From Candidatus Omnitrophota bacterium (lineage in GTDB: Bacteria; Omnitrophota; Gorgyraeia; Velamenicoccales; Velamenicoccaceae), in assembly GCA_020052645.1 (NCBI GenBank), contig JAGVOQ010000007.1, forward strand, positions 1 to 49,714: DNA of 49,714 nt, written 5' to 3'. The notes under the pieces were generated by a model, which did not search any database, was not told the DNA's origin, and saw only the letters and a list, made by a program, of their open reading frames with translations. Position numbers and translations under genes: made by a program. This document shows, one piece after another, positions 21,775 to 33,459 of the stretch (position 1 is the stretch's first letter; every line of letters begins with the position of its first letter).

Positions 21775-23358
21775 TTGTTTATTCCCAGATTTAGAAAGAT
21801 CGTTTTGGTTGTTTTTTTTCTCATCACGAGTTCTTTTATCCCTTCTTCTGTTTTCCCTGAATTTTTTTCCGATAATTACGGCATGGCTCATAATGTGGAT
21901 GTTGTTGTCGGAGAATCTAAAGTGGTTACAGTTTCCAAGCCTACACGCATCGCCATAGGCAACCCTGTGGTAGCTGATGTTGTCGGCGCTGGCAATACGG
22001 AAATTATTATTTCGGCAAAATCTGAAGGAGAGACGAATCTTCAGATTTGGGATGAATTGGGCCAGCGCGAATTGGTGATCAGGGTCTTTAAGGAAGACCT
22101 TGGGAAATTAAAAACGAGGCTTGAAGAATTATTTAGGACCGCTGGTTTGCGCGGCGTCACTTTTCAGGTAGGCGATCAAGAACGAAAAGTTTTTGTTTTA
22201 GGGGAAATGCCTACGCGGCAAAAAGAACTGGTGAATCAGCTCTTAGGGAATTTTAAGGAAAAGATTATTGATCTGGTCGTTTATAAAGAAGATAACCCTG
22301 TTGTTGAAATCGACGTGCAGTTGATAGAAATCGCTAAGACCGCTGTGGATAAGCTGGGGATTCAGTGGTCATCTTCATTGACGCTTAATGAATTGACACC
22401 TGCCGCGCATACTTTTAACAGGCAGGTTGGTGATGCGATCAAGGCCATCGGTCAATCAAGGTTTGATAGGACCGCTTTGACAGCGACTATTAATTTTCTT
22501 GAACAGGACAATTTAGCGCGAACATTGGCCAGGCCAAAGTTGATGGCTTTAAGCGGCAAGGAAGCGAAATTTTTAGCCGGCGGTCAGGTCCCGATTTTAT
22601 CTGATGTCAGTGTTTCCGGCGGATCGACAACAACCTCAGTGCAATATGTTGATTACGGCATCAAGCTAAATATAAGGCCAGAGGTTAAAGAAAATGGCGA
22701 TATCGTCTGCCAGATGGAAGCGGAAATAAAAACCATTGACACTTCAACGGCCTTGACTGTGCAGACCGGGACGAGCATTTCAACGTCGACTCCGGGTTTT
22801 AAAACCCGCAATGTTACAACGGAATTATACCTGAAAAATAATGAAACAGTATTTATGGCAGGGCTGATCGATAATAAGGAGTCTAACAATCTTCAGCAGG
22901 TACCGGCCATAGGCAACTTGCCTATTATCGGGGCCTTGTTCAGATCCAAGGATTTCCAAATCGGAGCCACGGAGCTTATTGTTTCAATAACTCCAAGGGT
23001 TTTGCGATATGGGGATATGAAACAGGATGCGCAGGGGGCTAATATCCCCCGCAGGAGCGCTGATGAAGATCCCGCTGAAGCTTATAGCCGCGCGGTGCAG
23101 GAGATCATTTTAAAAAATGTGGGTTATCCGCTGGAGGCTCAACGCGCCAATTTGTCAGGTGAGGCTGTATTGAGCTTGCATCTTGCTTCAAGCGGCCAAC
23201 TCCTCGGCGTTGTGGTAACCCAATCGTCGGGGCATAAACTTTTGGATGGCGCAGCGCTCTATACGGTTAAAAGACTTACGCCTTATCCGTCCTTCCCCAA
23301 AGATCTGATGCTTCGAGAAATTTGGGTCGAGGTGCCGATTAATTACCAATTAAGTTAA
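21775..23358 (+). CDS. cpaC: Tad secretin CpaC (RcpA) with C-terminal TonB-like domain
   Basis: The 527-residue outer-membrane channel has a signal peptide (about residues 1-28), the pilus N-terminal domain (VVVGESKVVTVSKPTRIAIG), a BON-like region, and the secretin core with VEIDVQLIEIAKTAVDKLG and the terminal VPAIGNLPIIGALFRSKDF plus ELIVSITPRVL. After this, residues about 430-527 match a TonB C-terminal-type domain (GEAVLSLHLASSGQLLGVVV, DGAALYTVKRLTPYPSFP). Canonical CpaC ends shortly after the secretin core, so this tail is an unusual fusion. The start codon is TTG preceded by GCGAGGACGC. It is followed by a 99-bp gap before the ATPase gene. Confidence 0.9.
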   Translation: MFIPRFRKIVLVVFFLITSSFIPSSVFPEFFSDNYGMAHNVDVVVGESKVVTVSKPTRIAIGNPVVADVVGAGNTEIIISAKSEGETNLQIWDELGQRELVIRVFKEDLGKLKTRLEELFRTAGLRGVTFQVGDQERKVFVLGEMPTRQKELVNQLLGNFKEKIIDLVVYKEDNPVVEIDVQLIEIAKTAVDKLGIQWSSSLTLNELTPAAHTFNRQVGDAIKAIGQSRFDRTALTATINFLEQDNLARTLARPKLMALSGKEAKFLAGGQVPILSDVSVSGGSTTTSVQYVDYGIKLNIRPEVKENGDIVCQMEAEIKTIDTSTALTVQTGTSISTSTPGFKTRNVTTELYLKNNETVFMAGLIDNKESNNLQQVPAIGNLPIIGALFRSKDFQIGATELIVSITPRVLRYGDMKQDAQGANIPRRSADEDPAEAYSRAVQEIILKNVGYPLEAQRANLSGEAVLSLHLASSGQLLGVVVTQSSGHKLLDGAALYTVKRLTPYPSFPKDLMLREIWVEVPINYQLS

Positions 23359-23457: not shown

Positions 23458-25668
23458 ATGGTTGACAATCTTGAGAAATCTGAAAAAAATGTAGTGACAG
23501 GGAATGTCATTTCTATTTTTAGCACCAAGGGCGGCGTGGGCAAGACCATGATCGCCGTTAACTTGGCTATTTCCCTGGCGCATGAAGGTAAGCGTGTCGC
23601 TTTGATTGATCTGGATCTCCAAGCGATCCAGGATATGGCGCGCATGATCGATACCACCCCCCAATATTCCATCTTCGATGTAGTTTCCATTATTGACAAA
23701 GTTGAGCAGGCCGGAAATATCAAAAATTACATGACCCTTGTTCCTCTGGGGATTGATTTTTTACCTGCCATCACGCGGCCTAAACAATCGCCTCACATCA
23801 CCGGAGAACGCATCGGCAAAGTGATCGGTATGCTGACGCCTTTTTATGATTTTATTATCGTCGATGGCGGAAGGGCTTTTACGGATAGCCTTATCAGCAT
23901 ATTCAATCGCTCCAACCTCATTCTTTTTTTGGTCACGCCGGATATTCTGTCCGTCTATGAAACGCGTTGGGGGTTGGATGTTTTGCAGAGTCTTCATTTT
24001 CCTCTGCGCATGGTGAAACTTTTGCTCAACAGGGCTGAAAGCAAGTCAGGCCTTTCTTGGCAAGAGGTCAAGTTGGCATTGCCTTGTGAAATCATCGCCA
24101 GTATTCCTTCAGACGGACGTGTCGTCGGGTTGGCTTTAAATCGTGGCGTGCCTGTTGTGGTGGACAATCCTTCCAGCCGCGTAAGCGCCTCGCTTAAGAA
24201 ATTAGCCCAGGATCTGATTTCTAACTCAGCTTTATTTATCGCGCACAAAGAAGTTGAGGATCTGCGTTCTATCAAAAAAGAAGAACTGCCCACCGCTGGC
24301 GCATTCTGGGACATGATGGGCATGTCGGATAAGGTTAAGTGGATAAAGCCTATTGAAGAAGAAGACGAGGTTATTAAGTTAAAACGCCGGATCCACGCGC
24401 GCCTGATTGAAGAGTTAGATTTAAAGCGCCTGGATATGGAGCTCATCAATAATCCGAAAAAAGCCAAGGAACTGCGCGAGAAAGCCGAAAAAATCGTTAC
24501 GAATTTATTGGCTGAAGAAACCGGTGCTTTCTTGTCTTCCTTTGAGGTTCGCGAGAAACTTGTTAAGGAAGTGGCAGATGAAGCCTTGGGGTTAGGCCCC
24601 TTAGAAGGGCTTATCCGCAATCAGGATATTACCGATATCATGGTGAACAATAAAGATCAAATTTACGTGGAAGAGCATGGGAAGATTATTTTAACAAGTA
24701 AAAAATTTATTTCAGACGATCAGGTCAGGGTCGTTATAGAAAGAATCATCGCGCCACTGGGCCGGCGTATCGACGAATCCGTGCCTATGGTGGACGCGCG
24801 CCTGGCCGATGGTTCCCGTGTTAATGCCATCATCCCTCCCTTGGCGCTTACAGGGCCAACATTGACCATCAGAAAATTTTCAAGAGAACATTATACCGTC
24901 GACGATTTGATGACGCGGTTTGGCAGTCTTAACCGTCCGATGGGTGATTTTCTGTCAGCTTGCGTTTCGGCAAGAAAAAATATGATCGTTTCCGGAGGAA
25001 CCGGTTCAGGTAAAACGACATTTTTAAACGTCTTGTCCGCTTTTATTCCCAATGATGAGCGCATCATCACCATTGAAGACGCCGCTGAGTTGCGATTAAA
25101 CCAAGAGCATTGGGTGAGGCTTGAGTCCAGGCCGCCTAACATTGAAGGCAAAGGGCAGATTTCCATTCGCGAGCTTTTTAGAAACTGTTTGCGTATGAGG
25201 CCGGATCGTATAGTTATCGGTGAGTGCCGTGGTGAAGAAGTCTTGGATATGCTCCAGGCCATGAACACGGGTCATGATGGTTCCATGACAACGATCCACG
25301 CCAACTCCACGCGCGATGTGTTGAGCCGCTTGGATTCCATGATCTTGATGAGCGGTGTTGAATTGCCTATACGTGCTATTCGCGAGATGACCGCGTCCGC
25401 CATAGATGTTATTGTGCAAACCGCCAGGCTCTCCGACGGTACCAGAAAAATTACCCAGATCACAGAAATAACCGGCATTGATGACGACATGCATATTAAA
25501 ATGCAGGACATTTTTCGTTTTAAGCAACTTTCTATAGAAAAAGAAACTAATAAAGTTATCGGTGATTTTATCGCCACAGGCTATGTCCCTACTTTTTATG
25601 ACGAATTGATCACTCGCGGCATCCATCTTTCCAAAGAATCCTTTTTGCCCCCAGAAGAAAAGTCTTGA
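23458..25668 (+). CDS. Fused CpaE (TadZ) and CpaF (TadA) ATPase
   Basis: The 736-residue protein combines two Tad functions in one chain. Residues about 17-260 are a ParA/MinD-like CpaE/TadZ domain with deviant Walker A FSTKGGVGKTM and VALIDLDLQ. Residues about 310-736 are a CpaF secretion ATPase: TDIMVNNKDQIYVEEHGKI, VDARLADGSRVNAIIPPLA, Walker A SGGTGSGKTTFLN, the RMRPDRIVIGECRGEE Walker B region and the GHDGSMTTIHANS histidine box. TadZ normally localises the machine and CpaF powers pilus assembly as a hexamer; fusion would impose equal amounts. A single ATG start with no internal stop or ribosome-binding site argues against a sequencing artefact. TadB and TadC are distant at 36752. Confidence 0.92.
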   Translation: MVDNLEKSEKNVVTGNVISIFSTKGGVGKTMIAVNLAISLAHEGKRVALIDLDLQAIQDMARMIDTTPQYSIFDVVSIIDKVEQAGNIKNYMTLVPLGIDFLPAITRPKQSPHITGERIGKVIGMLTPFYDFIIVDGGRAFTDSLISIFNRSNLILFLVTPDILSVYETRWGLDVLQSLHFPLRMVKLLLNRAESKSGLSWQEVKLALPCEIIASIPSDGRVVGLALNRGVPVVVDNPSSRVSASLKKLAQDLISNSALFIAHKEVEDLRSIKKEELPTAGAFWDMMGMSDKVKWIKPIEEEDEVIKLKRRIHARLIEELDLKRLDMELINNPKKAKELREKAEKIVTNLLAEETGAFLSSFEVREKLVKEVADEALGLGPLEGLIRNQDITDIMVNNKDQIYVEEHGKIILTSKKFISDDQVRVVIERIIAPLGRRIDESVPMVDARLADGSRVNAIIPPLALTGPTLTIRKFSREHYTVDDLMTRFGSLNRPMGDFLSACVSARKNMIVSGGTGSGKTTFLNVLSAFIPNDERIITIEDAAELRLNQEHWVRLESRPPNIEGKGQISIRELFRNCLRMRPDRIVIGECRGEEVLDMLQAMNTGHDGSMTTIHANSTRDVLSRLDSMILMSGVELPIRAIREMTASAIDVIVQTARLSDGTRKITQITEITGIDDDMHIKMQDIFRFKQLSIEKETNKVIGDFIATGYVPTFYDELITRGIHLSKESFLPPEEKS

Positions 25669-25670
25669 GG

Positions 25671-25780
25671 TTTTAATCCTCCGCAGAAATCCTCGGGCTT
25701 TAGCCCGTTAAGATGAATGGCGTTGTGCATTTTCTGCTAAAGGAGGAAGCCTTAGGACTTAAAGTCCTAAGGAACTTCAC
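25671..25780 (+). repeat. Hairpin-bearing repeat, copy 1 (REP/MITE-like)
   Basis: A 110-bp unit with hairpin CGGGCTTTAGCCCG (25694-25707) and an 11-bp perfect stem CCTTAGGACTT/AAGTCCTAAGG (25750-25772). CCTCCGCAGAAA and TTTCTGCTAAAGGAGG pair as an enclosing stem. The same sequence occurs in reverse complement at 32971-33082. Such elements resemble IS200/IS605-type or RAYT-dependent palindromic repeats. No transposase of that class is seen in the window. Confidence 0.75.
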
Positions 25781-26035
25781 TTTACACAATATGTTTAGGT
25801 TACTTTAAGTTTCTTTAAGTTCCGTTATGTTTCTTCATGCTGCTTTTTGCAACCTTAAGGAACCCCATGAAACATTTTTAAAATTGCTCTAAAACCGCCT
25901 ATCATCCCCAAAAAAAGAGATAACTTTTTGCAAATTTTTCATAGACTCTCAAAATCAGAAATTTGGCATTTTTTGTTATTAAAAAGAGGCCATCATTTTC
26001 TTTAAATTTATTTGTCCAAAATGGGCATAAAAGCC
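25781..26035. other. Intergenic region after tadA with no gene
   Basis: This AT-rich stretch contains tandem-like TTTAAGTTTCTTTAAGTTCC sequence near 25800-25830 and no credible coding frame. It separates the ATPase gene from the DUF192 gene and its promoter. Confidence 0.5.
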
Positions 26036-26065
26036 TTGATAGAATGCAGGCAAGTTTGCTATAAT
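26036..26065 (+). promoter_or_regulatory. Promoter upstream of the DUF192 gene
   Basis: TTGATA (26036-26041) and TATAAT (26060-26065) are spaced by 18 bp. The predicted leader is about 90 bases. Confidence 0.6.
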
Positions 26066-26163
26066 TAAAGTCCAGTAAGAAAAGACTGTCAAGTTTATAG
26101 TGAGGCGGTCTGATCATTAGTCAGGGTGTTTTTAAGACGCAAGTTTAATTGACCTAATCTAAC

Positions 26164-26526
26164 ATGGAAAACGTATACTTCAAGGCTATAAATTTGGCTA
26201 CCGGACATGTTATTGCGGACAAGGTTAAAATCGCCCAAGATTACAGGTCAAGATCCATAGGCTTGCTTAACAGGACGTCCTTTTCTAGGGAGGAAGGCCT
26301 GCTGATTAAGCCCTGCAATTCAATCCACACTTTTTTTATGAAATTCCCCATTGATGTCCTATTTTTAGATAAGAAAGGCAAGGTTGTTAAAATCCGAAAA
26401 TCCCTTGTGCCCTGGAGGCTTTGTGCAGCTACCAAGCGCGGGTATATGACTCTGGAACTAATGGATAAGGCATTAGATGCTGTTCAAGTTAACGTTGGTG
26501 ATCCAATAGGAATTATGAAGATGTGA
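26164..26526 (+). CDS. DUF192 family protein
   Basis: The 120-residue protein matches DUF192 (COG1430): RSRSIGLLNRTSFSREEGLL, then IHTFFMKFPIDVLFLDKKG, corresponding to the family pattern of RxxGLM and FWMxxxxxPLDxxFxD. There is no clear signal peptide. Function is unknown, although DUF192 genes often neighbour pilus or secretion genes. It has its own promoter and lies between the fused ATPase and the transposase-like gene. Confidence 0.8.
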   Translation: MENVYFKAINLATGHVIADKVKIAQDYRSRSIGLLNRTSFSREEGLLIKPCNSIHTFFMKFPIDVLFLDKKGKVVKIRKSLVPWRLCAATKRGYMTLELMDKALDAVQVNVGDPIGIMKM

Positions 26527-26599
26527 GCTTAGTTACAATGTCCATTTTATATATTTTATTGCTATAAGTTGTTATATTTAAATATATTATAAAAAATAA

Positions 26600-28171
26600 A
26601 TGTCCAATATAAAGAAACGGTCAAAAAAGATAGACTTAACGATTAAGAGTTATATTCTTCGTAGAAAAAAGCAACAGCCTGACATAGCCTGCCGAACACT
26701 CTCCATTGAAGCCAGTGCCAAATTCAATATTAAAATATCTAAATCATCTGTCAATTCTTTGTTAAAAGCAGAACTGTTAAGCAGCCCAAAAGGACGCAGG
26801 GTTCAGTTAATATTTCAGCCTTGTGGTGTTTCGTCAAATGTCGGTTTTTCTTTTCTTTACGGAGCTAGTTTGTTGCTTGGATTGCCTAAAATTTTGAGCG
26901 AAATCATCGTTGAAAATCATCCTGCAATTAAGCTAAAGCGCGCGAGTTTAGAGGCTATCTGCGAAGCCTGGATTTTGGCTAAAGCCATGTACAATGTTCC
27001 ATTGGAAAGGATTGAAAATTATTCAAAAAATGAGATATGGTTTATCTTAGGCAGAAAGTCGAATAAGGCCCATTTAAAATACTTTATTGATACGCTGAAA
27101 TTATTACAAGTCATTAATAATCAACTAGTTACAAGATTACTGGAAGGTTTTCAAGATGTCCATTTTTTAAAGTTTACTCTCGCTGATGGCTCTCAATTTT
27201 TCTTGGATGGTCAGCTAAAAAGCGTATGGAAAGACAAGAATATCCCATTAAATTTTTGTGTAACCATAGATAAAATAGAAGGTTACGTCAAATTTTCTTT
27301 TTCTGGTTCTGATCCTTTGCTAATTTTTAGCGCAAGACCTGAAACCATGCTTTCTGAAGAAACCAACAATTTTATTTTTGGTTTGGATGGTTCATCACCT
27401 TCAAAAAGAATCCGGAAAATTGAGGTTTTTTCACCCAACGGAGAGGTGGTCAATGAGGCTTCATTTGTGATGCCCCAAAGAAGGCGATTTATCATCGGTG
27501 TTTGGCCTTGGCAGTATAAGGCCATTGCAGAACTTGAAAAAATACCTGCCCAGGGTTCGGTCACCTGCGAGGTGAGAAATAGCAATATCCATTACTTGGA
27601 AGATGTGGCTTTATATTTGCAACATGCTGAAAACAATGAAGTTGTGTTAAGAGTAATTGTGCTTAAAGCGACTAAAAACGGTCCTGCGAGGATTGCGCTT
27701 TTGACGAATCTTGAAGCAAGGGAATGGGATACGGAAAAAGTGGTGAGGGAATATCTTAAGAACCATTTTGATTTTGAGACTGAACATAAGTTGTTTCTTG
27801 AAACAGTAAAGACGCCGCTCTATTTTGAAGATTTTCTTTCATGTGAAAAAATCTCAAAGGTGGTTAAGAGACTTGGCGAGGCAAAAGAAACAGACGATTT
27901 CTTTTCAACTCTCGTCGATATTTTGAATATTTACGCCCAAAGATTATTCTTTCCTCCAGAGTGTTGTCGATGGAGTTTGTTGAAGATGAAAGAATTGTTT
28001 TACAAGAAAAAAGGCCATGTTAAGCGAGATATGGCTGAGGATGTTTTATATAAGTTATTTATTGACAACGTGTTAGATGAAAAGAAGGTGATGGAATACG
28101 CAACAGAAAAGTTTAACGAGTTGAATATCCAAGATCCATTTTCTAAGAAGCTTTGGTTGGTCACGCAATAA
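26600..28171 (+). CDS. Transposase-derived DDE-like protein
   Basis: This 523-residue protein is not confidently assigned. The N-terminus is basic and HTH-like (RKKQQPDIACRTLSIEASAK then ISKSSVNSLLKAELLSSP). The middle holds FTLADGSQFFLDGQLKSVW, resembling the first acidic strand of an RNase-H-like DDE fold. A later segment, ARIALLTNLEAREWDTEKVV then YLKNHFDFETEHK, mirrors the LLTNxxxxxxxxvvxxYxxRWxxE end of IS-family transposases. The terminal Arg-Trp is not preserved, so it may be inactive or domesticated. No terminal inverted repeats were found next to it. It separates the ATPase region from the pilin cluster. Confidence 0.5.
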   Translation: MSNIKKRSKKIDLTIKSYILRRKKQQPDIACRTLSIEASAKFNIKISKSSVNSLLKAELLSSPKGRRVQLIFQPCGVSSNVGFSFLYGASLLLGLPKILSEIIVENHPAIKLKRASLEAICEAWILAKAMYNVPLERIENYSKNEIWFILGRKSNKAHLKYFIDTLKLLQVINNQLVTRLLEGFQDVHFLKFTLADGSQFFLDGQLKSVWKDKNIPLNFCVTIDKIEGYVKFSFSGSDPLLIFSARPETMLSEETNNFIFGLDGSSPSKRIRKIEVFSPNGEVVNEASFVMPQRRRFIIGVWPWQYKAIAELEKIPAQGSVTCEVRNSNIHYLEDVALYLQHAENNEVVLRVIVLKATKNGPARIALLTNLEAREWDTEKVVREYLKNHFDFETEHKLFLETVKTPLYFEDFLSCEKISKVVKRLGEAKETDDFFSTLVDILNIYAQRLFFPPECCRWSLLKMKELFYKKKGHVKRDMAEDVLYKLFIDNVLDEKKVMEYATEKFNELNIQDPFSKKLWLVTQ

Positions 28172-28230
28172 GCCCGTTTTTCCTTTCCCCATTTTTTATT
28201 AATGCCTGCAAAATATCCTAGTTACGAAGG

Positions 28231-28261
28231 AAAGCGCTTTCTTTTGAGGGTGCTTTTTTTA
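28231..28261 (+). terminator. Candidate intrinsic terminator
   Basis: AAGCGCT (28232-28238) can pair with GGTGCTT (28249-28255) including G-U pairs, followed by a T-run to 28260. It lies 60 bases past the transposase-like gene and just before a strong promoter. Confidence 0.45.
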
Positions 28262-28291
28262 TTGACATATCTATATACTATATGCTATATT
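28262..28291 (+). promoter_or_regulatory. Promoter of the pilin cluster
   Basis: TTGACA (28262-28267) and TATATT (28286-28291) are spaced by 18 bp, giving a leader of about 190 bases before the first pilin ATG at 28488. Confidence 0.65.
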
Positions 28292-28487
28292 TTACATGCA
28301 AGATAAGGCGGTATCGAATCGGCGAAACGAAAGAAGAATGTTAAAAGCCACGGCCACGGTGAAAAAGATTTTTTCTATTTTCGTTGTATTTATTTTTTTG
28401 CGTCCATTTTCTTTTTTAACCGGATTGCCGGATACCGATTTTAAAAATTAGTATTCGCGATCCGGTAATTTTTTGAGGGGGTTCATA

Positions 28488-28706
28488 ATGAGTTTAAAAA
28501 AGTATTTTAAAAGTTGTGGACTGAACAAAAAATTGTCCAAAAATTATTTTTTGAACTGCAAAGGACAATCAACGGTTGAGTATTTTATTTTGTTTTGTGT
28601 TTTTGCCGCTCTCTCTATTTTTGTAACATCGTCTTTTTTAGGTGGGGCTCGTGCGCAAATCCAGGGTTTTGCAAGTAGCGCGTGTTCTCGTATAATTTCG
28701 CCGTGA
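28488..28706 (+). CDS. Class III prepilin, Tad/Flp type (pilin 1)
   Basis: The 72-residue product has a basic leader ending CKG and then QSTVEYFILFCVFAALSIF. Cleavage after Gly gives Gln at +1 and Glu at +5, the residue needed for pilin assembly. A hydrophobic alpha-1 helix follows and the tail is short. ATG 28488 is preceded by GAGGGGG. It is the first of a run of paralogues in the pilin cluster and has its own upstream promoter. Confidence 0.82.
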   Translation: MSLKKYFKSCGLNKKLSKNYFLNCKGQSTVEYFILFCVFAALSIFVTSSFLGGARAQIQGFASSACSRIISP

Positions 28707-28728
28707 CCGGTTTTATAGCGGAGTGAAA

Positions 28729-28905
28729 ATGACCAGTATTCTTAACGCAAAATCGTTGAACAAAAAAGGACAGGCTGTGATTGAGTATGCGGTTTTGCTG
28801 ACAGCTTTATGCCTGGTTTTTTTATCGATGTTTGTTTATATGCAACGGTCTGCTAATGCCAAGCTTTTTAGTGTGCAAAATCAGATCAATGCCGCGATGC
28901 GTTAA
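28729..28905 (+). CDS. Class III prepilin (pilin 2)
   Basis: The 58-residue product has leader ending KKG and then QAVIEYAVLLTALCLVFLS with Glu at +5. It is barely longer than the hydrophobic helix, ending QNQINAAMR, the typical size of a Flp major pilin. I choose ATG 28729, preceded by GGAG at a good spacing, over GTG 28723. It is 22 bases after pilin 1. Confidence 0.84.
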   Translation: MTSILNAKSLNKKGQAVIEYAVLLTALCLVFLSMFVYMQRSANAKLFSVQNQINAAMR

Positions 28906-28917
28906 CGTGAGGTTAAA

Positions 28918-29139
28918 ATGAAGAATAAAAAAGGACAGTCCGTTTTGGAATACGCGATCGTCTTATCGCTGGTGGGCGCTGCGTGCGCGGCCATGGGGAT
29001 GTATGTGAACAGGGCTGTTAATAGTAAGTTGATTGACATCGTCGAACAGATTTCTCCGGTTCAAAATAAAACGACGAGCGCGTTTGATCCGTTGAATTCT
29101 CGCGGGGGAGGCACAAGCTGGTATCCATGGATTCGTTAA
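28918..29139 (+). CDS. Class III prepilin (pilin 3)
   Basis: This 73-residue prepilin has a short basic leader, MKNKKG, then QSVLEYAIVLSLVGAACAAM with Glu at +5. A polar tail contains SRGGGTSWYPWIR. GAGG lies six bases before ATG. Its small size and close spacing to pilin 2 (13 bases) suggest co-translation. Its relation to the other paralogues is by sequence pattern only. Confidence 0.84.
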   Translation: MKNKKGQSVLEYAIVLSLVGAACAAMGMYVNRAVNSKLIDIVEQISPVQNKTTSAFDPLNSRGGGTSWYPWIR

Positions 29140-29160
29140 TCAAATTTTTTAGGAGGGCGT

Positions 29161-29385
29161 ATGAGATTTTTTAAAAAAGTGAAGAAAGAAACGAAGCGGT
29201 TGAAAGAAACACGCGCGCAAATGACGATCGAATACGCGGTGATGTTTACAGTGATTTGCTCTGTGATCATTTACGCGTCAACGGCTTTTATACGTCCGGC
29301 GGTGAATAGATTTTACAACTCAACCCAGGTTATTCTTGACAACGCGACAACAACGGTGCAGGAGAGGTTTTCTTTTAGTGGATAA
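29161..29385 (+). CDS. Class III prepilin with alanine at the cleavage site (pilin 4)
   Basis: The 74-residue protein has a long basic leader and QMTIEYAVMFTVICSVIIY, where the residue before Gln is Ala (ETRA|QMTIEY) instead of Gly. Prepilin peptidases tolerate Ala poorly compared with Gly, so processing may be slower. Glu at +5 is present. An AGGAGGGCGT sequence precedes ATG. The tail is rich in Thr and Asn (NSTQVILDNATTTV). Confidence 0.78.
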   Translation: MRFFKKVKKETKRLKETRAQMTIEYAVMFTVICSVIIYASTAFIRPAVNRFYNSTQVILDNATTTVQERFSFSG

Positions 29386-29415
29386 TTCAAAGAGGGAGAG
29401 AGGGGGTGAGAAGAG

Positions 29416-29652
29416 ATGAAGAAGGTGTTGAACAGAGTGGGTCAAAGCACGATGGAATACGTTATAGTGTTGACAGCAATCGTGGCTGCTATTTTATTTG
29501 CAGCGACGCAGTTTATCAGGCCGAGTATGAACAAGGTTATGCGTGATGCCAGCGTGTCAATGAACGCCAGCGGCGGTTTGTTGCAATTAGCCGGCGGCAA
29601 TGTTGTGGGCTATGTAGGCACTACGACGGGTGGTTCAACCATAACACCATAA
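29416..29652 (+). CDS. Class III prepilin (pilin 5)
   Basis: This 78-residue prepilin has a leader ending NRVG and then QSTMEYVIVLTAIVAAILF with Glu at +5. The tail ends in a glycine-threonine-rich segment (NVVGYVGTTTGGSTITP). GGGGTGAGAAGAG precedes ATG. RPSMNKVM after the helix resembles RPAVNRFY in pilin 4, so pilins 4 and 5 are probably closest paralogues. The gap after it, 29653-29715, holds the AGGAGG ribosome binding site of the next gene. Confidence 0.83.
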   Translation: MKKVLNRVGQSTMEYVIVLTAIVAAILFAATQFIRPSMNKVMRDASVSMNASGGLLQLAGGNVVGYVGTTTGGSTITP

Positions 29653-29715
29653 GCGAAAGAAATGAATTGCTTGTTAGATTTTAAAAAAAATCTTTAAGAG
29701 GAGGTGAGTAAAGAG

Positions 29716-30069
29716 ATGTATATAAGATTGAATAGCAGGAGAGGTCAGAATACGGCTGAGTACGCGATCCTTATCGGGGTTATCGTCGCTGCGGCTATCG
29801 CGATGCAGGTTTATGTCAGGCGCGGTGTGCAGGCCAGGATCAAAGAGTCTGTTGATTTTAGTAGGACAGCTGATGATCAGGCAGGCAATGCGATATTCAC
29901 TCAGACACAATACGAGCCTTATTATTCAGCGCAGAACACGACGCAGAGCCAGAGCGCACGTCAATCCGAATCGATGGCGTTCGGCGGTGTTACGACGAGA
30001 AATACGATTGAACAGATCGCATCAGTGCGCGGTAACCAGACAGCGGGTAACTACATGATGGGCAATTAA
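29716..30069 (+). CDS. Class III prepilin with long polar tail (pilin 6)
   Basis: The 117-residue product starts MYIRLNSRRG and continues QNTAEYAILIGVIVAAAIAM with Glu at +5. The exported part is rich in Gln, Ser and Asn (TQTQYEPYYSAQNTTQSQSA). ATG 29716 lies 11 bases after AGGAGG; GTG 29704 in the same frame overlaps that site and is less likely. It resembles the next prepilin in VYVRRGVQARIKES. Confidence 0.82.
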   Translation: MYIRLNSRRGQNTAEYAILIGVIVAAAIAMQVYVRRGVQARIKESVDFSRTADDQAGNAIFTQTQYEPYYSAQNTTQSQSARQSESMAFGGVTTRNTIEQIASVRGNQTAGNYMMGN

Positions 30070-30118
30070 TCATAAGGATCTTATTTCAACAGAATCTTTT
30101 AGAGGAGGTGAAAAGTAA

Positions 30119-30436
30119 ATGTTTAAACGGTTGGGAAAAAAAGGTCAGAGCACTCTCGAATATGCAGTTTTGATCGTGGTTATCATCGCTGCCCTTATCG
30201 CGATGCAGGTTTATTTAAAACGCGGCATCCAGGGCAAAATGAGAGAGTCTGCTGATACGATTGGCGAACAGTTTTCACCTGGGATCACACAAGGCAACAA
30301 GTACACACAGTCATGGATGAATCAGACGTCGACATCAGATCGCTGGAGCGAATCAACGATCATCCAGAACCAGTGGCAGAATAGAAGCGGATACGAGAAC
30401 GTTATTAACGCGTCCAACGAATATTGGGGCCATTAA
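30119..30436 (+). CDS. Class III prepilin (pilin 7)
   Basis: This 105-residue prepilin has leader MFKRLGKKG and then QSTLEYAVLIVVIIAALIAM with Glu at +5, and VYLKRGIQGKMRES, matching the neighbour. The polar tail has several Trp and Asn residues (SDRWSESTIIQNQWQNRSG). AGGAGGTGAAAAGTAA precedes ATG. High similarity to pilins 6 and 8 suggests recent tandem duplication. Confidence 0.83.
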   Translation: MFKRLGKKGQSTLEYAVLIVVIIAALIAMQVYLKRGIQGKMRESADTIGEQFSPGITQGNKYTQSWMNQTSTSDRWSESTIIQNQWQNRSGYENVINASNEYWGH

Positions 30437-30498
30437 TACGTTGATTGTTTTTTAAAGACAAGCCTCGCTTGAGAAAGCGGGATACGAAAGAAAAAGTG

Positions 30499-31029
30499 AT
30501 GTTAGAAAAAGCGAGTCAAAAAACGAAAAAAAGAAACGGGCAACTCGTCCAAGAGATTGGTACCCTCCCTTTATCAGGGACGAGTTGCCCTGCTTGTCCT
30601 GAGGTTCATTCAGAAGTTTTTGAGAATCGCAGGGCTTGTCCTGAGGCTTACGCAGAAGTTTTTACAGGACGAAGGCATAGCCTAAAAATTTTTTCACAAC
30701 GCGGCCAGCAAATTTTGGAATACGCGGCTGTCATGCTGGCGATTGTGGCTGCTTTTGGTGTGATGAGAATTTATGCAGAGCGTGGACTGCAGGCACATAT
30801 CAAGAGCCAGGCAGACCAGATAGGCTTGCAGAACGAGAGCTTTGAGCAATCCTATGACGACGGGTATGATAGAACTACGGTCACAAAAGATATGGGCGTA
30901 TTAAGCGATGGTGTATCAAGAAAAAATTCAACAGGTTTGGCGAGCTCGTATAATTCGTTAACCACGGGTGTGTCAAAAGGCGTTGTGGATGTCAATAAAA
31001 CGGAATTAATAAGCGTGGGTTATTACTAA
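30499..31029 (+). CDS. Class III prepilin with inserted repeat in the leader (pilin 8)
   Basis: The prepilin core is QRGQQILEYAAVMLAIVAAF with Glu at +5, then a Ser/Thr/Asp-rich tail. The leader is abnormally long. It contains a 13-bp inverted repeat (30538-30550, 30578-30590) and a 14-residue direct repeat, ACPEVHSEVFENRR then ACPEAYAEVFTGRR (30592-30675). This indicates insertion of a repeat element in frame. ATG 30499 is chosen; an earlier TTG at 30445 lacks support. The reading frame is kept, so an elongated leader is presumably tolerated, or translation begins inside the element. Confidence 0.68.
   Translation: MLEKASQKTKKRNGQLVQEIGTLPLSGTSCPACPEVHSEVFENRRACPEAYAEVFTGRRHSLKIFSQRGQQILEYAAVMLAIVAAFGVMRIYAERGLQAHIKSQADQIGLQNESFEQSYDDGYDRTTVTKDMGVLSDGVSRKNSTGLASSYNSLTTGVSKGVVDVNKTELISVGYY
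30538..30675 (+). repeat. Inverted repeat plus 42-bp tandem repeat inside a pilin leader
   Basis: GGGCAACTCGTCC (30538-30550) pairs perfectly with GGACGAGTTGCCC (30578-30590). Two 42-bp repeats then follow (30592-30633, 30634-30675), each containing CTTGTCCTGAGG and CAGAAGTTTTT. Since 42 bp equals 14 codons, the frame is preserved. The unit resembles the short TCCTGAG...CGAAGG palindromic repeats scattered in many genomes. Confidence 0.7.
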
Positions 31030-31057
31030 TAAGCGCGAATTATGAAGGGGTATGTTA

Positions 31058-31438
31058 ATGACGGCAAAAGAGTATTTAAAAGCTGTTGAAAGAAAAGGGC
31101 AATCTATTATGGAGCTCTCTATTCTTTTTGTTGTTATTGTTTTTGCCCTGATCTCCATGCAGACCTATATCAAACGGGCGATCCAAGGGGCCTGGAAGAG
31201 CGGCGTTGATGAAATAGGAGACCAGTATGATCCCAATACCACAACATCTGATTATACCTCGCGGCGTTATTTCAATGCGAGCACGACGAGTACAACGCAA
31301 CCGGAAAACAGGCTTTTAGCAGGCCGGCCTGGTACGTCCAGCGCGCGGTATGCGAACGTAATATTGACGATATCAAACACGCAGGTTCATTATGACAACA
31401 CCATAACAAATGGTTATGAGCAGGTTGCTGCTTTTTAG
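31058..31438 (+). CDS. Class III prepilin-like protein (pilin 9)
   Basis: The 126-residue product has leader ending ERKG and then QSIMELSILFVVIVFALISM, with Glu at +5 and Leu instead of Tyr at +6. The tail is rich in Thr, Ser and Asn. ATG 31058 is preferred because AAGGGG lies at suitable spacing; an ATG two codons upstream is possible. It overlaps no neighbour and is followed at 31458 by the large TadE-like gene. Confidence 0.78.
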   Translation: MTAKEYLKAVERKGQSIMELSILFVVIVFALISMQTYIKRAIQGAWKSGVDEIGDQYDPNTTTSDYTSRRYFNASTTSTTQPENRLLAGRPGTSSARYANVILTISNTQVHYDNTITNGYEQVAAF

Positions 31439-31457
31439 CAAATTAGAGGATTTTGTC

Positions 31458-32951
31458 ATGGGAGAAATTATGTTGAATATAGCGCAAAAGACGATGATTG
31501 TTAAGATGCAGCCTTCTACAGGGCAGGCATTGATAGAACTTGCTGTCTTTGGCGCGATTTTTCTTGTTGTTCTTTCTGTGCTTGTGCGCTATGGCATAGA
31601 ATTTAACCTTCAGCAGAAAGCTGAGATGACGGCGCATCGCAGGGCATTGGCTATTGCGTCAACCTCTGTCAGCGATGTTGGTTCTCCGGCTGTTCCTATG
31701 GGCAGTGGAGGATATAGTTCCAGGCAAGATGTGTTTATTCCGGATGTTGCGGAATCCATGGGGCAGGGGTCTGCTTCGTTAATAGGAGCGTCAGCCAGTG
31801 TAACGCGCAATCCTGTAGCGCACCTAACGACCGGGACACCTTCTCCTTATGTCGTGGATTCGCAGAATTATCTGCGCATAAATAGCAGCGGAGCAACAAA
31901 AGATTTCAGGAGAAAGAAGACTTATGGAAGCGGCTTTAGGATTGAGAACAGTGTTTCACAGTTTTCAATCCCTAAATACGAGGAATTTTATAGTATTTTA
32001 GTTCAAGCATCTGATCTTAGTTGGAGGTTTTGGGATGCCGGCGCCGAAGACATGGAAGCCGCTTATAAGACAACGTGTCTTACAGGTGCATGGGTGCCAA
32101 ATCCTTCTTATGACGCCACTTCTTCCGGTTATGGTACTGGCGGTTCTGGTGGTGAAGGCGGTTCTGGTGGTTCTGGCGGTTATGGCGGCGGAGGTTCTGG
32201 TGGTGAAGGCGGTTCTGGTGGTGAAGGCGGTTCTGGTGGTGAAGGCGGCGGAGGTTCTACTGGTCCGGAGGGGAATACTGATTCTGATGGTGATACTCAG
32301 TATGTCTATGCTTGTTCGGAGTATGGCCTTACTTTGCGCATTGACGATCCTTGTCTTGCAACAACTCCGGAGTATGATACTTGTTATGAACAGGCGCGCG
32401 TGATTGTTGATGTGGATTACTGCAAATTAAAATGCACTAAGACTAATAACTGCGCATATATTGCGACAAGGACAGCTTGTGTAAAGAAATGTGATGATCT
32501 TTGTGTGTTGGAGACAAATCCGCCTCATCAAACCAATACTTCGTATGATCCGGCTTTAGGGGGCGCTTGGTATGCGGCAGATTATGCTTATTACAATCAT
32601 GCGTTTCTCGATAATACTCGTCGGGTTTATACATTTCCATACCTGGATCGATTTTTTAATAAGTCTCTTTCAAAAAAATTCGGGCTTGGAGCTGATGGAG
32701 CGAAAACAACCGGCGATTTTCAAACCCAGGCTTTTGATAAACAGGAAACACCTACGCGGGTGGTGACAGGAGAAGCAGCCGTGTGGAATGAGACCTCTAA
32801 CAGTAATACTCTTTATCAGAACAATCTGGATGAATATGGTTATCAGCTTGAGGATAGAAGGCCTGATGAATACGCTGATAATGTTACAGTGATGTCTATT
32901 CCTTCAGAGGTTTCAGTAAGGTTGAATCAGACGTGGCAGACAGATAAATAG
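31458..32951 (+). CDS. Large TadE-like pseudopilin with Gly-rich linker and Cys-rich region
   Basis: The 497-residue product has a class III leader ending STG, then QALIELAVFGAIFLVVLSVL with Glu at +5. The exported part carries a tandem SGGEGG/SGGYGG linker at about residues 224-268, encoded by an 18-bp-type repeat (32131-32260). A following segment (about 280-360) has around ten cysteines (CSEYGLTLRIDDPC, CKLKCTKTNNCAY, CVKKCDDLCV). Disulfides in the periplasm or on the surface are likely. TadE/TadF proteins are minor pseudopilins of about 150-200 residues, so this is an expanded version. ATG 31458 is preceded by AGAGGA; 31470 is an alternative. Confidence 0.7.
   Translation: MGEIMLNIAQKTMIVKMQPSTGQALIELAVFGAIFLVVLSVLVRYGIEFNLQQKAEMTAHRRALAIASTSVSDVGSPAVPMGSGGYSSRQDVFIPDVAESMGQGSASLIGASASVTRNPVAHLTTGTPSPYVVDSQNYLRINSSGATKDFRRKKTYGSGFRIENSVSQFSIPKYEEFYSILVQASDLSWRFWDAGAEDMEAAYKTTCLTGAWVPNPSYDATSSGYGTGGSGGEGGSGGSGGYGGGGSGGEGGSGGEGGSGGEGGGGSTGPEGNTDSDGDTQYVYACSEYGLTLRIDDPCLATTPEYDTCYEQARVIVDVDYCKLKCTKTNNCAYIATRTACVKKCDDLCVLETNPPHQTNTSYDPALGGAWYAADYAYYNHAFLDNTRRVYTFPYLDRFFNKSLSKKFGLGADGAKTTGDFQTQAFDKQETPTRVVTGEAAVWNETSNSNTLYQNNLDEYGYQLEDRRPDEYADNVTVMSIPSEVSVRLNQTWQTDK
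32131..32260 (+). repeat. In-frame Gly-rich tandem repeat
   Basis: GGTTCTGGTGGTGAAGGC and close variants repeat about seven times, encoding Ser-Gly-Gly-Glu-Gly-Gly units between two parts of the TadE-like protein. It is a flexible linker prone to copy-number change. Confidence 0.75.
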
Positions 32952-32970
32952 AGGGACTGTATATAGGATA

Positions 32971-33082
32971 GTGAAGTCCCTTAGGACTTTAGTCCTAAGG
33001 GACTTCCTCCTTTAGCAGAAAATGCACAACACCATTTATCTTGACGGGCTAAAGCCCTAAGGATTTCTGCGGAGGATTAAAA
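32971..33082 (-). repeat. Hairpin-bearing repeat, copy 2 (inverted)
   Basis: This is a reverse-complement copy of the unit at 25671-25780. The AAGTCCC...GGGACTT arms extend the stem to 15 perfect base pairs (32974-33005), and GGGCTAAAGCCC (33046-33057) is the second hairpin. Its GGAGG at 33071-33075 provides the ribosome binding site of the next gene (ATG 33085). Confidence 0.75.
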
Positions 33083-33084
33083 TA

Positions 33085-33459
33085 ATGACGGATATGATCA
33101 TGATCATGGAAAAAATGATAAGAACGCATATAAAAGGACAGGCCCTTCGACTCACTGATGTTCGCTCAGGACAGGCCACCTTAGAGCTGACGGTAGCTTT
33201 GATTTTTGTCATGATATTTTTAGTAGGCGCTATCAGGATTTTTCTCTGGCTGAATGAGAGCATTGTGAATAGGCAGGTGGATTATGAAGCCACCCGGGCT
33301 ACAGCAGCGAGCACGGATTTTACGCCTATGGATGTGTCTCAGATTCAGGATGATGATTCAAAGACAGAGGCAGAGCTGGCAATTCCCGGAGAGGTTTTAG
33401 TTGATGAATCTGACAAGACGCGTTATCCGGAGTTGAATCTTTTTAAGTCAACCTGGTAA
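33085..33459 (+). CDS. TadE-like prepilin with an in-frame insertion
   Basis: The 124-residue protein has leader ending RSG and then QATLELTVALIFVMIFLVG with Glu at +5. The leader contains KGQALRLTDVRSGQA, where GGACAGGCC is repeated 33 bp apart (33136 and 33169), as if a 24-bp sequence was inserted with target duplication. The inserted CTTCGACTCACTGATG...CTCA resembles dispersed palindromic repeats. The exported domain is short and acidic (DDDSKTEAEL). It is a minor pseudopilin candidate. Start ATG 33085 uses GGAGG from the preceding repeat. Confidence 0.72.
   Translation: MTDMIMIMEKMIRTHIKGQALRLTDVRSGQATLELTVALIFVMIFLVGAIRIFLWLNESIVNRQVDYEATRATAASTDFTPMDVSQIQDDDSKTEAELAIPGEVLVDESDKTRYPELNLFKSTW

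Follow-up and report, generated by a model that had tools for sequence, protein, structure and literature searches.

The inverted pair of hairpin-bearing repeats in the Omnitrophota window (by which we mean the whole stretch of 49,714 nucleotides analysed here) belongs, very probably, to the PATEs (palindrome-associated transposable elements): transposase-free derivatives of the IS200/IS605 family that are moved in trans by a TnpA. The Omnitrophota element is, as such, a new instance of an already known class. As far as we know, few descriptions exist, in bacteria, of transposase-free IS200/IS605 derivatives that form families on the scale of a phylum, and a search of the literature found no account of this element in Omnitrophota.

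The two units lie where a preliminary description of the sequence had placed them, at 25671-25780 and 32971-33082, and are indeed reverse complements of one another; they are 92% identical over the whole unit and 7.25 kb apart, with 28 nt as the longest exact block that they have in common. The hairpins described at that time are likewise present in each unit (a CCTTAGGAC...GTCCTAAGG-type stem and a GGGCTTTAGCCC hairpin), but a third, larger helix had been overlooked; unit 1 folds with a z-score of about -5 against shuffles, on either strand. The element proper of copy 1 spans 104 nt (25677-25780, forward strand), with boundaries set by the guide/cleavage rule discussed below and by the lengths of in-frame insertions, and begins 8 nt past the CpaE/CpaF-like ATPase gene, counted from its stop codon. 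Its left cleavage/target tetranucleotide (CL, TTAA; 25673-25676, forward), which is read directly from the sequence, stays in the left flank; TTAA or one-base variants of it stand directly 5' of nearly all copies. Then follow the left guide (GL, AAAT; 25687-25690, forward), assigned 5' of hairpin 1 by the rule of PMC5934647; hairpin 1 itself, the left-end palindrome (CC..GGGCTTTAGCCC..GAT; 25691-25715, forward), which adjoins a conserved ATGAATG; the right guide (GR, GAAG; 25746-25749, forward); hairpin 2, the right-end palindrome (CCTTAGGACTTAAAGTCCTAAGG; 25750-25772, forward); and the right cleavage site (CR, TCAC; 25777-25780, forward), with T at +1.

Copy 2 is inverted with respect to copy 1, its element proper of 106 nt occupying 32971-33076 on the reverse strand and its TTAA target/cleavage site 33077-33080 on the same strand. 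On the gene strand, it presents a GGAGG (33071-33075, forward) as a possible donated Shine-Dalgarno sequence, 9 nt 5' of the ATG at 33085, such that donation of a ribosome binding site by the repeat, as had been proposed, is plausible here but is not a property of the family. That GGAGG-ATG spacing is found only in copy 2, and since other copies upstream of genes are spaced otherwise, the putative site looks like an accident of a single insertion.

Searching for the element elsewhere in the 1.7 Mb source genome, we found about 28 dispersed copies, amounting to some 0.18% of the sequence (E = 1e-61 for the unit itself and 1e-43 for the next copy). They are 104-106 nt long (around 105 nt), 74-98% identical in pairwise comparison and sharp at their ends; the consensus of the oriented and aligned genome copies reads (T)TTAA/T CC [TCC or TTTA] GCAG AAAT CC..GGGCTTTAGCCC..GG ATGAATGG .... 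TTTTCTGC TAAA GGAG GAAG CCTTAGGACTTTAAGTCCTAAGG AA CT TCAC/T, where a slash marks a boundary, here and below. Neither terminal inverted repeats nor a target duplication is seen in the alignment of 28 copies; palindromes, hairpins 1 and 2, sit close to both termini; and the element holds no gene, around 105 nt being too short for a transposase.

In the predicted fold the 5' part pairs with the middle in a long helix that encloses hairpin 1, and hairpin 2 follows at the 3' end. We aligned 60 copies, drawn from more than 20 genomes, under the guidance of this structure; the alignment is fitted to the model and hence biased towards it. All helices have compensatory changes, with two-sided changes at 23 of 29 pairs and none of 500 shuffles as good; in a sliding control, 43-68% of cells were paired, against 90% for the model. 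Counts of G.T and A.C mismatches (122 and 96) do not tell the acting strand apart. Some copies depart from the common plan: four (L129, L133, L140 and L151) are single-hairpin forms of about 47 nt, in which the left end is joined to the right end via one palindrome; one (L021, G000:C10:13318) is chimeric, its left half having given way to a hairpin of the other right-end class (guide GGAG, end CCAC); and another (L026, G000:C48:40591) has precisely lost hairpin 2 (GGAAG/GAACTTCACT), as by replication slippage.

A fold that is conserved and co-varies so strongly, in copies that are mostly intergenic and often right behind stop codons, might also suggest a regulatory RNA with a defined structure, or a signal in transcription, that is retained by virtue of its function and has spread by duplication only. 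We regard this as very improbable: the copies have no gene context in common and are inserted at a fixed position beside TTAA, some lie within coding genes, orthologous sites are empty, and the occurrence across the class is sporadic. A comparison with Rfam gave no match to the element, and tRNAs alone in the window.

The assignment to the IS200/IS605 family comes from the ends. In IS608, the cleavage sites CL (TTAC) and CR (TCAA) pair with guides that lie 5' of each hairpin, GL (AAAG) and GR (GAAT), respectively (PMC5934647), and from this scheme we derived three Watson-Crick contacts (positions 1-2, 2-1 and 4-4). All three are satisfied at the left end of the element by CL TTAA and GL AAAT, the four bases before hairpin 1; GL and CL are near-invariant, so that pairing here is a matter of consistency and the test of co-variation is confined to the right end. 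There, CR TCAC (the last four bases) and GR GAAG (before hairpin 2) also satisfy the three contacts, and the guide/cleavage pairs co-vary between copies as GAAG/TCAC, GGAG/CCAC and GAAT/TCAA. All three right-end contacts hold in 32 of the 39 copies outside the source genome, compared with a mean of 16.5 and a maximum of 27 in 5000 shuffles, a comparison that is not a strict probability given that copies within one genome are related. Part of this co-variation could stem from the simple base of a hairpin, since the base of hairpin 2 overlaps both guide and cleavage site.

After the right cut, T stands at +1 in 66 of 75 copies; +1 preferences have been reported for IS608 and ISDra2 too. A right-end motif of the same kind (GAAGCC-hairpin-GG..TCAC) occurs at intact TnpA/TnpB loci of the class, seven times in sense and once in antisense, with none in 77 kb of control loci; the loci with such an element-like right end are L153, L156, L157, L160 and L099. 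At L160 (in G198, with the end pair GAAG/TCAC), L163 (in G285) and L099 there is also a left-end AGAAA-CC hairpin followed by GGGGATGAA, similar to that of the element.

Movement of the element might be envisaged as follows. The left end consists of target TTAA, guide AAAT and hairpin 1 followed by ATGAATG, and the right end of guide GAAG or GGAG, hairpin 2 and cleavage site TCAC or CCAC, with the long helix tying left to right and no gene between. An HUH/Y1 TnpA acting in trans would attach to the two hairpins, both on the same strand of single-stranded DNA, as in the known mechanism of IS608, and the cut sites would be picked through base pairing between guide and cleavage site. A single-stranded circle would then be excised and inserted 3' of TTAA, preferably TTAA/T, without target duplication. 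Window copies 1 and 2 entered the Tad-type pilus locus of this lineage independently of each other. Our data show the dispersal of the copies, their ends and fold, the joint variation of guide and cleavage site, the empty sites in relatives and the in-frame insertions; the TnpA, the single-strand route of transposition and any present activity are what we infer.

As to the enzyme, the source genome (completeness 90%) lacks both a classical TnpA and a TnpB. It does carry two RAYT-like Y1 genes, L031 and L032, flanked by palindromes of their own, of GGGGTCAGACCTC type and GAGGTCGAACCTCG type, respectively. Their presence, the detection of Y1 genes in 236 of the 384 class genomes at a threshold of E<=1e-12, and a RAYT guide logic similar to that of IS608 (PMC8266576) would fit a REP/BIME-like element that owes its movement to a resident RAYT/TnpA_REP; REPtrons (REP plus TnpA_REP) likewise combine short palindromic repeats, bearing guide-like tetranucleotides, with Y1 enzymes (PMC8266576). 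We consider this unlikely, however, as both RAYT genes bear other flanking palindromes and the element flanks neither, grounds on which we also reject these two genes as the driver. Furthermore, GTAG or GTGG tags are lacking at either hairpin, the guides being GAAG, GGAG, GAAT and GGAT; the two ends are unlike each other and match those of IS200/IS605 TnpA elements; and 27 of the 384 genomes have the element, against 236 with Y1 genes. The idea of a TnpA_REP-like system, as first put forward, is borne out in so far as the repeat is a mobile hairpin element for which a Y1/TnpA-like enzyme is the proper suspect, but a reading of the repeat as the REP of a resident TnpA_REP is not supported.

Returning to a TnpA acting in trans, other candidates were sought in the class. 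TnpB, with none in the source genome, occurs in 16 of 384 class genomes and, among the listed carriers of the element, in G274 alone; we reject it as the driver. In three carriers (G225, G006 and G274), the flanks of the classical TnpA genes do not contain the full element, and about 80 Y1/TnpB loci, scanned with a profile, gave no strong match to an autonomous copy with exactly these ends, the end motifs alone being in common. No Y1 gene is seen in 5 of 26 element-bearing genomes, which are incomplete assemblies. The mobiliser may be encoded in that tenth of the source genome which is missing, has perhaps been lost, or may be external.

The genes around the window copies run in the order secretin, CpaE/CpaF-like ATPase, DUF192, a gene for a 523-residue protein, pilins and downstream genes. 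The secretin (21775-23358) has a TonB C-terminal domain, and the ATPase (23458-25668) is a fusion of a ParA/CpaE domain to a T2SSE/CpaF ATPase; it matches relatives over nearly the full length. In four relatives of the same family (G003, G004, G005 and G006) the locus is fully covered, collinear and in the same orientation, and in G002 and G007 it is collinear over the available parts; none of G002-G007 has the element at either site or any sign of inversion. Because these relatives are without the element at either site, the window copies are lineage-specific insertions. The empty sites are those of other genera, in a comparison set of one genome per species; the second gap measures about 30-70 nt in relatives, which is near the 20 nt of the window minus the element.

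It had been suggested that recombination between the two repeats could invert the pilin block, and the inverted orientation, 92% identity and 7.25 kb separation of the copies do invite such a reading. The collinear, uninverted and element-free locus of the relatives speaks against it, as do an exact identity of 28 nt only and block genes that are oriented like their neighbours. The spacing is as by chance: among the 28 copies, 4 neighbour gaps of at most 7.3 kb are observed where 3.0 are expected at random (P(>=4) = 0.36). We regard inversion as the least probable of the explanations considered, with hardly any likelihood left to it, and a tempting but unsupported pilin ‘switch’ is thereby removed. 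The pair does enclose, by position, the gene that was called transposase-like (26600-28171, forward), but we reject the reading of this gene as a transposase; lying outside the element, it is single-copy, has a sub-threshold HTH hit alone and is conserved as part of the pilus locus. Its 523-residue product belongs to no known family, and relatives have, at the corresponding position of their pilus loci, counterparts of 35-51% identity.

PATEs of Haloquadratum walsbyi (PMC3119063), among the closest known systems, are also without terminal inverted repeats or target duplication, are too short for a transposase, and have near-terminal palindromes, IS605-type ends and a greater distance from end to palindrome at 5' than at 3'; single-palindrome core deletions are found there too, comparable to the four short forms described above. 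The present element differs in its Omnitrophota host, its TTAA(T) target, its length of about 105 nt, the helix linking both ends and the occurrence of some copies in frame. Like IS608 and the IS200/IS605 family, it shows guide/cleavage pairing at both ends (the GAAT/TCAA variant being IS608's own pair), inserts 3' of one fixed tetranucleotide and has a preference at +1. Unlike IS608, it has neither tnpA nor tnpB, hence is a derivative and not an autonomous member, and uses TTAA/AAAT instead of TTAC/AAAG at the left and mostly TCAC/GAAG or CCAC/GGAG at the right. Its copies preserve, in nature, guide and cleavage sequences that have changed together, and lend support to the IS608 rule of recognition beyond the model elements.

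In-frame copies within long ORFs number at least four, from three genomes: two in the source genome (L007 and L023), one in G201 (L059) and one in G260 (L091). L007 (G000:C21:7430-7538) sits mid-gene in a DsbD_2/CcdA-like protein and L023 (G000:C54:3321-3429) mid-gene in a B12-binding radical-SAM protein, both with the frame open, and orthologues of these genes in related genomes are without just the inserted stretch. The predicted insert peptides in the CcdA-like and radical-SAM proteins read FNPPQKSPGFSPWDEW... and LILRRDPKGLARGMNG...; counting the FN from TTTAAT as native, the insert comes to 34 residues (102 nt), the remaining lengths then match several orthologues, and this length agrees with the boundaries given by the guide rule. 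Three more copies (L025, L027 and L028) stand at N-termini. Net insert lengths are 102, 102, 99, 99, 96 and 87 nt for L007, L023, L025, L027, L059 and L091, all of them multiples of three, without any target duplication.

Selection against frame-breaking insertions would, by itself, give the same in-frame pattern. We raise, tentatively and as somewhat doubtful, that a GC-richer subfamily keeps two forward frames free of stop codons and has, time and again, inserted beside TTAA in frame, adding expressed loops of about 30 residues to conserved Omnitrophota proteins (DsbD/CcdA-like, B12-binding radical-SAM and others). If true, this would be a protein-lengthening element akin to those of Rickettsia (RPE), with an identified, base-pair-programmed insertion chemistry. 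Rickettsia palindromic elements (PMC10969869) are similarly short, structured, mobile repeats found in frame within unrelated genes; by comparison, in-frame copies are a minority here and the transposition family is known from the ends, and the likeness does not come from sequence comparison. The in-frame copies tie transposase-free IS200/IS605 derivatives to an enlargement of proteins known mainly from Rickettsia.

Across the class, the 27 carriers detected with a covariance model among 384 genomes belong to scattered genera, with up to 10 copies scored; the named relatives are Omnitrophota. Collections of phages and plasmids gave no match to the element. A scan of 84,980 species for the exact left-end pattern returned 25 stretches, with labels that are nearly all Omnitrophota. 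Four copies (L133, L146, L148 and L151) lie on contigs of a metagenome-assembled genome labelled Patescibacteria (FK_Sedi_A_Bin.134), reflecting either a mislabelled bin or transfer between phyla.
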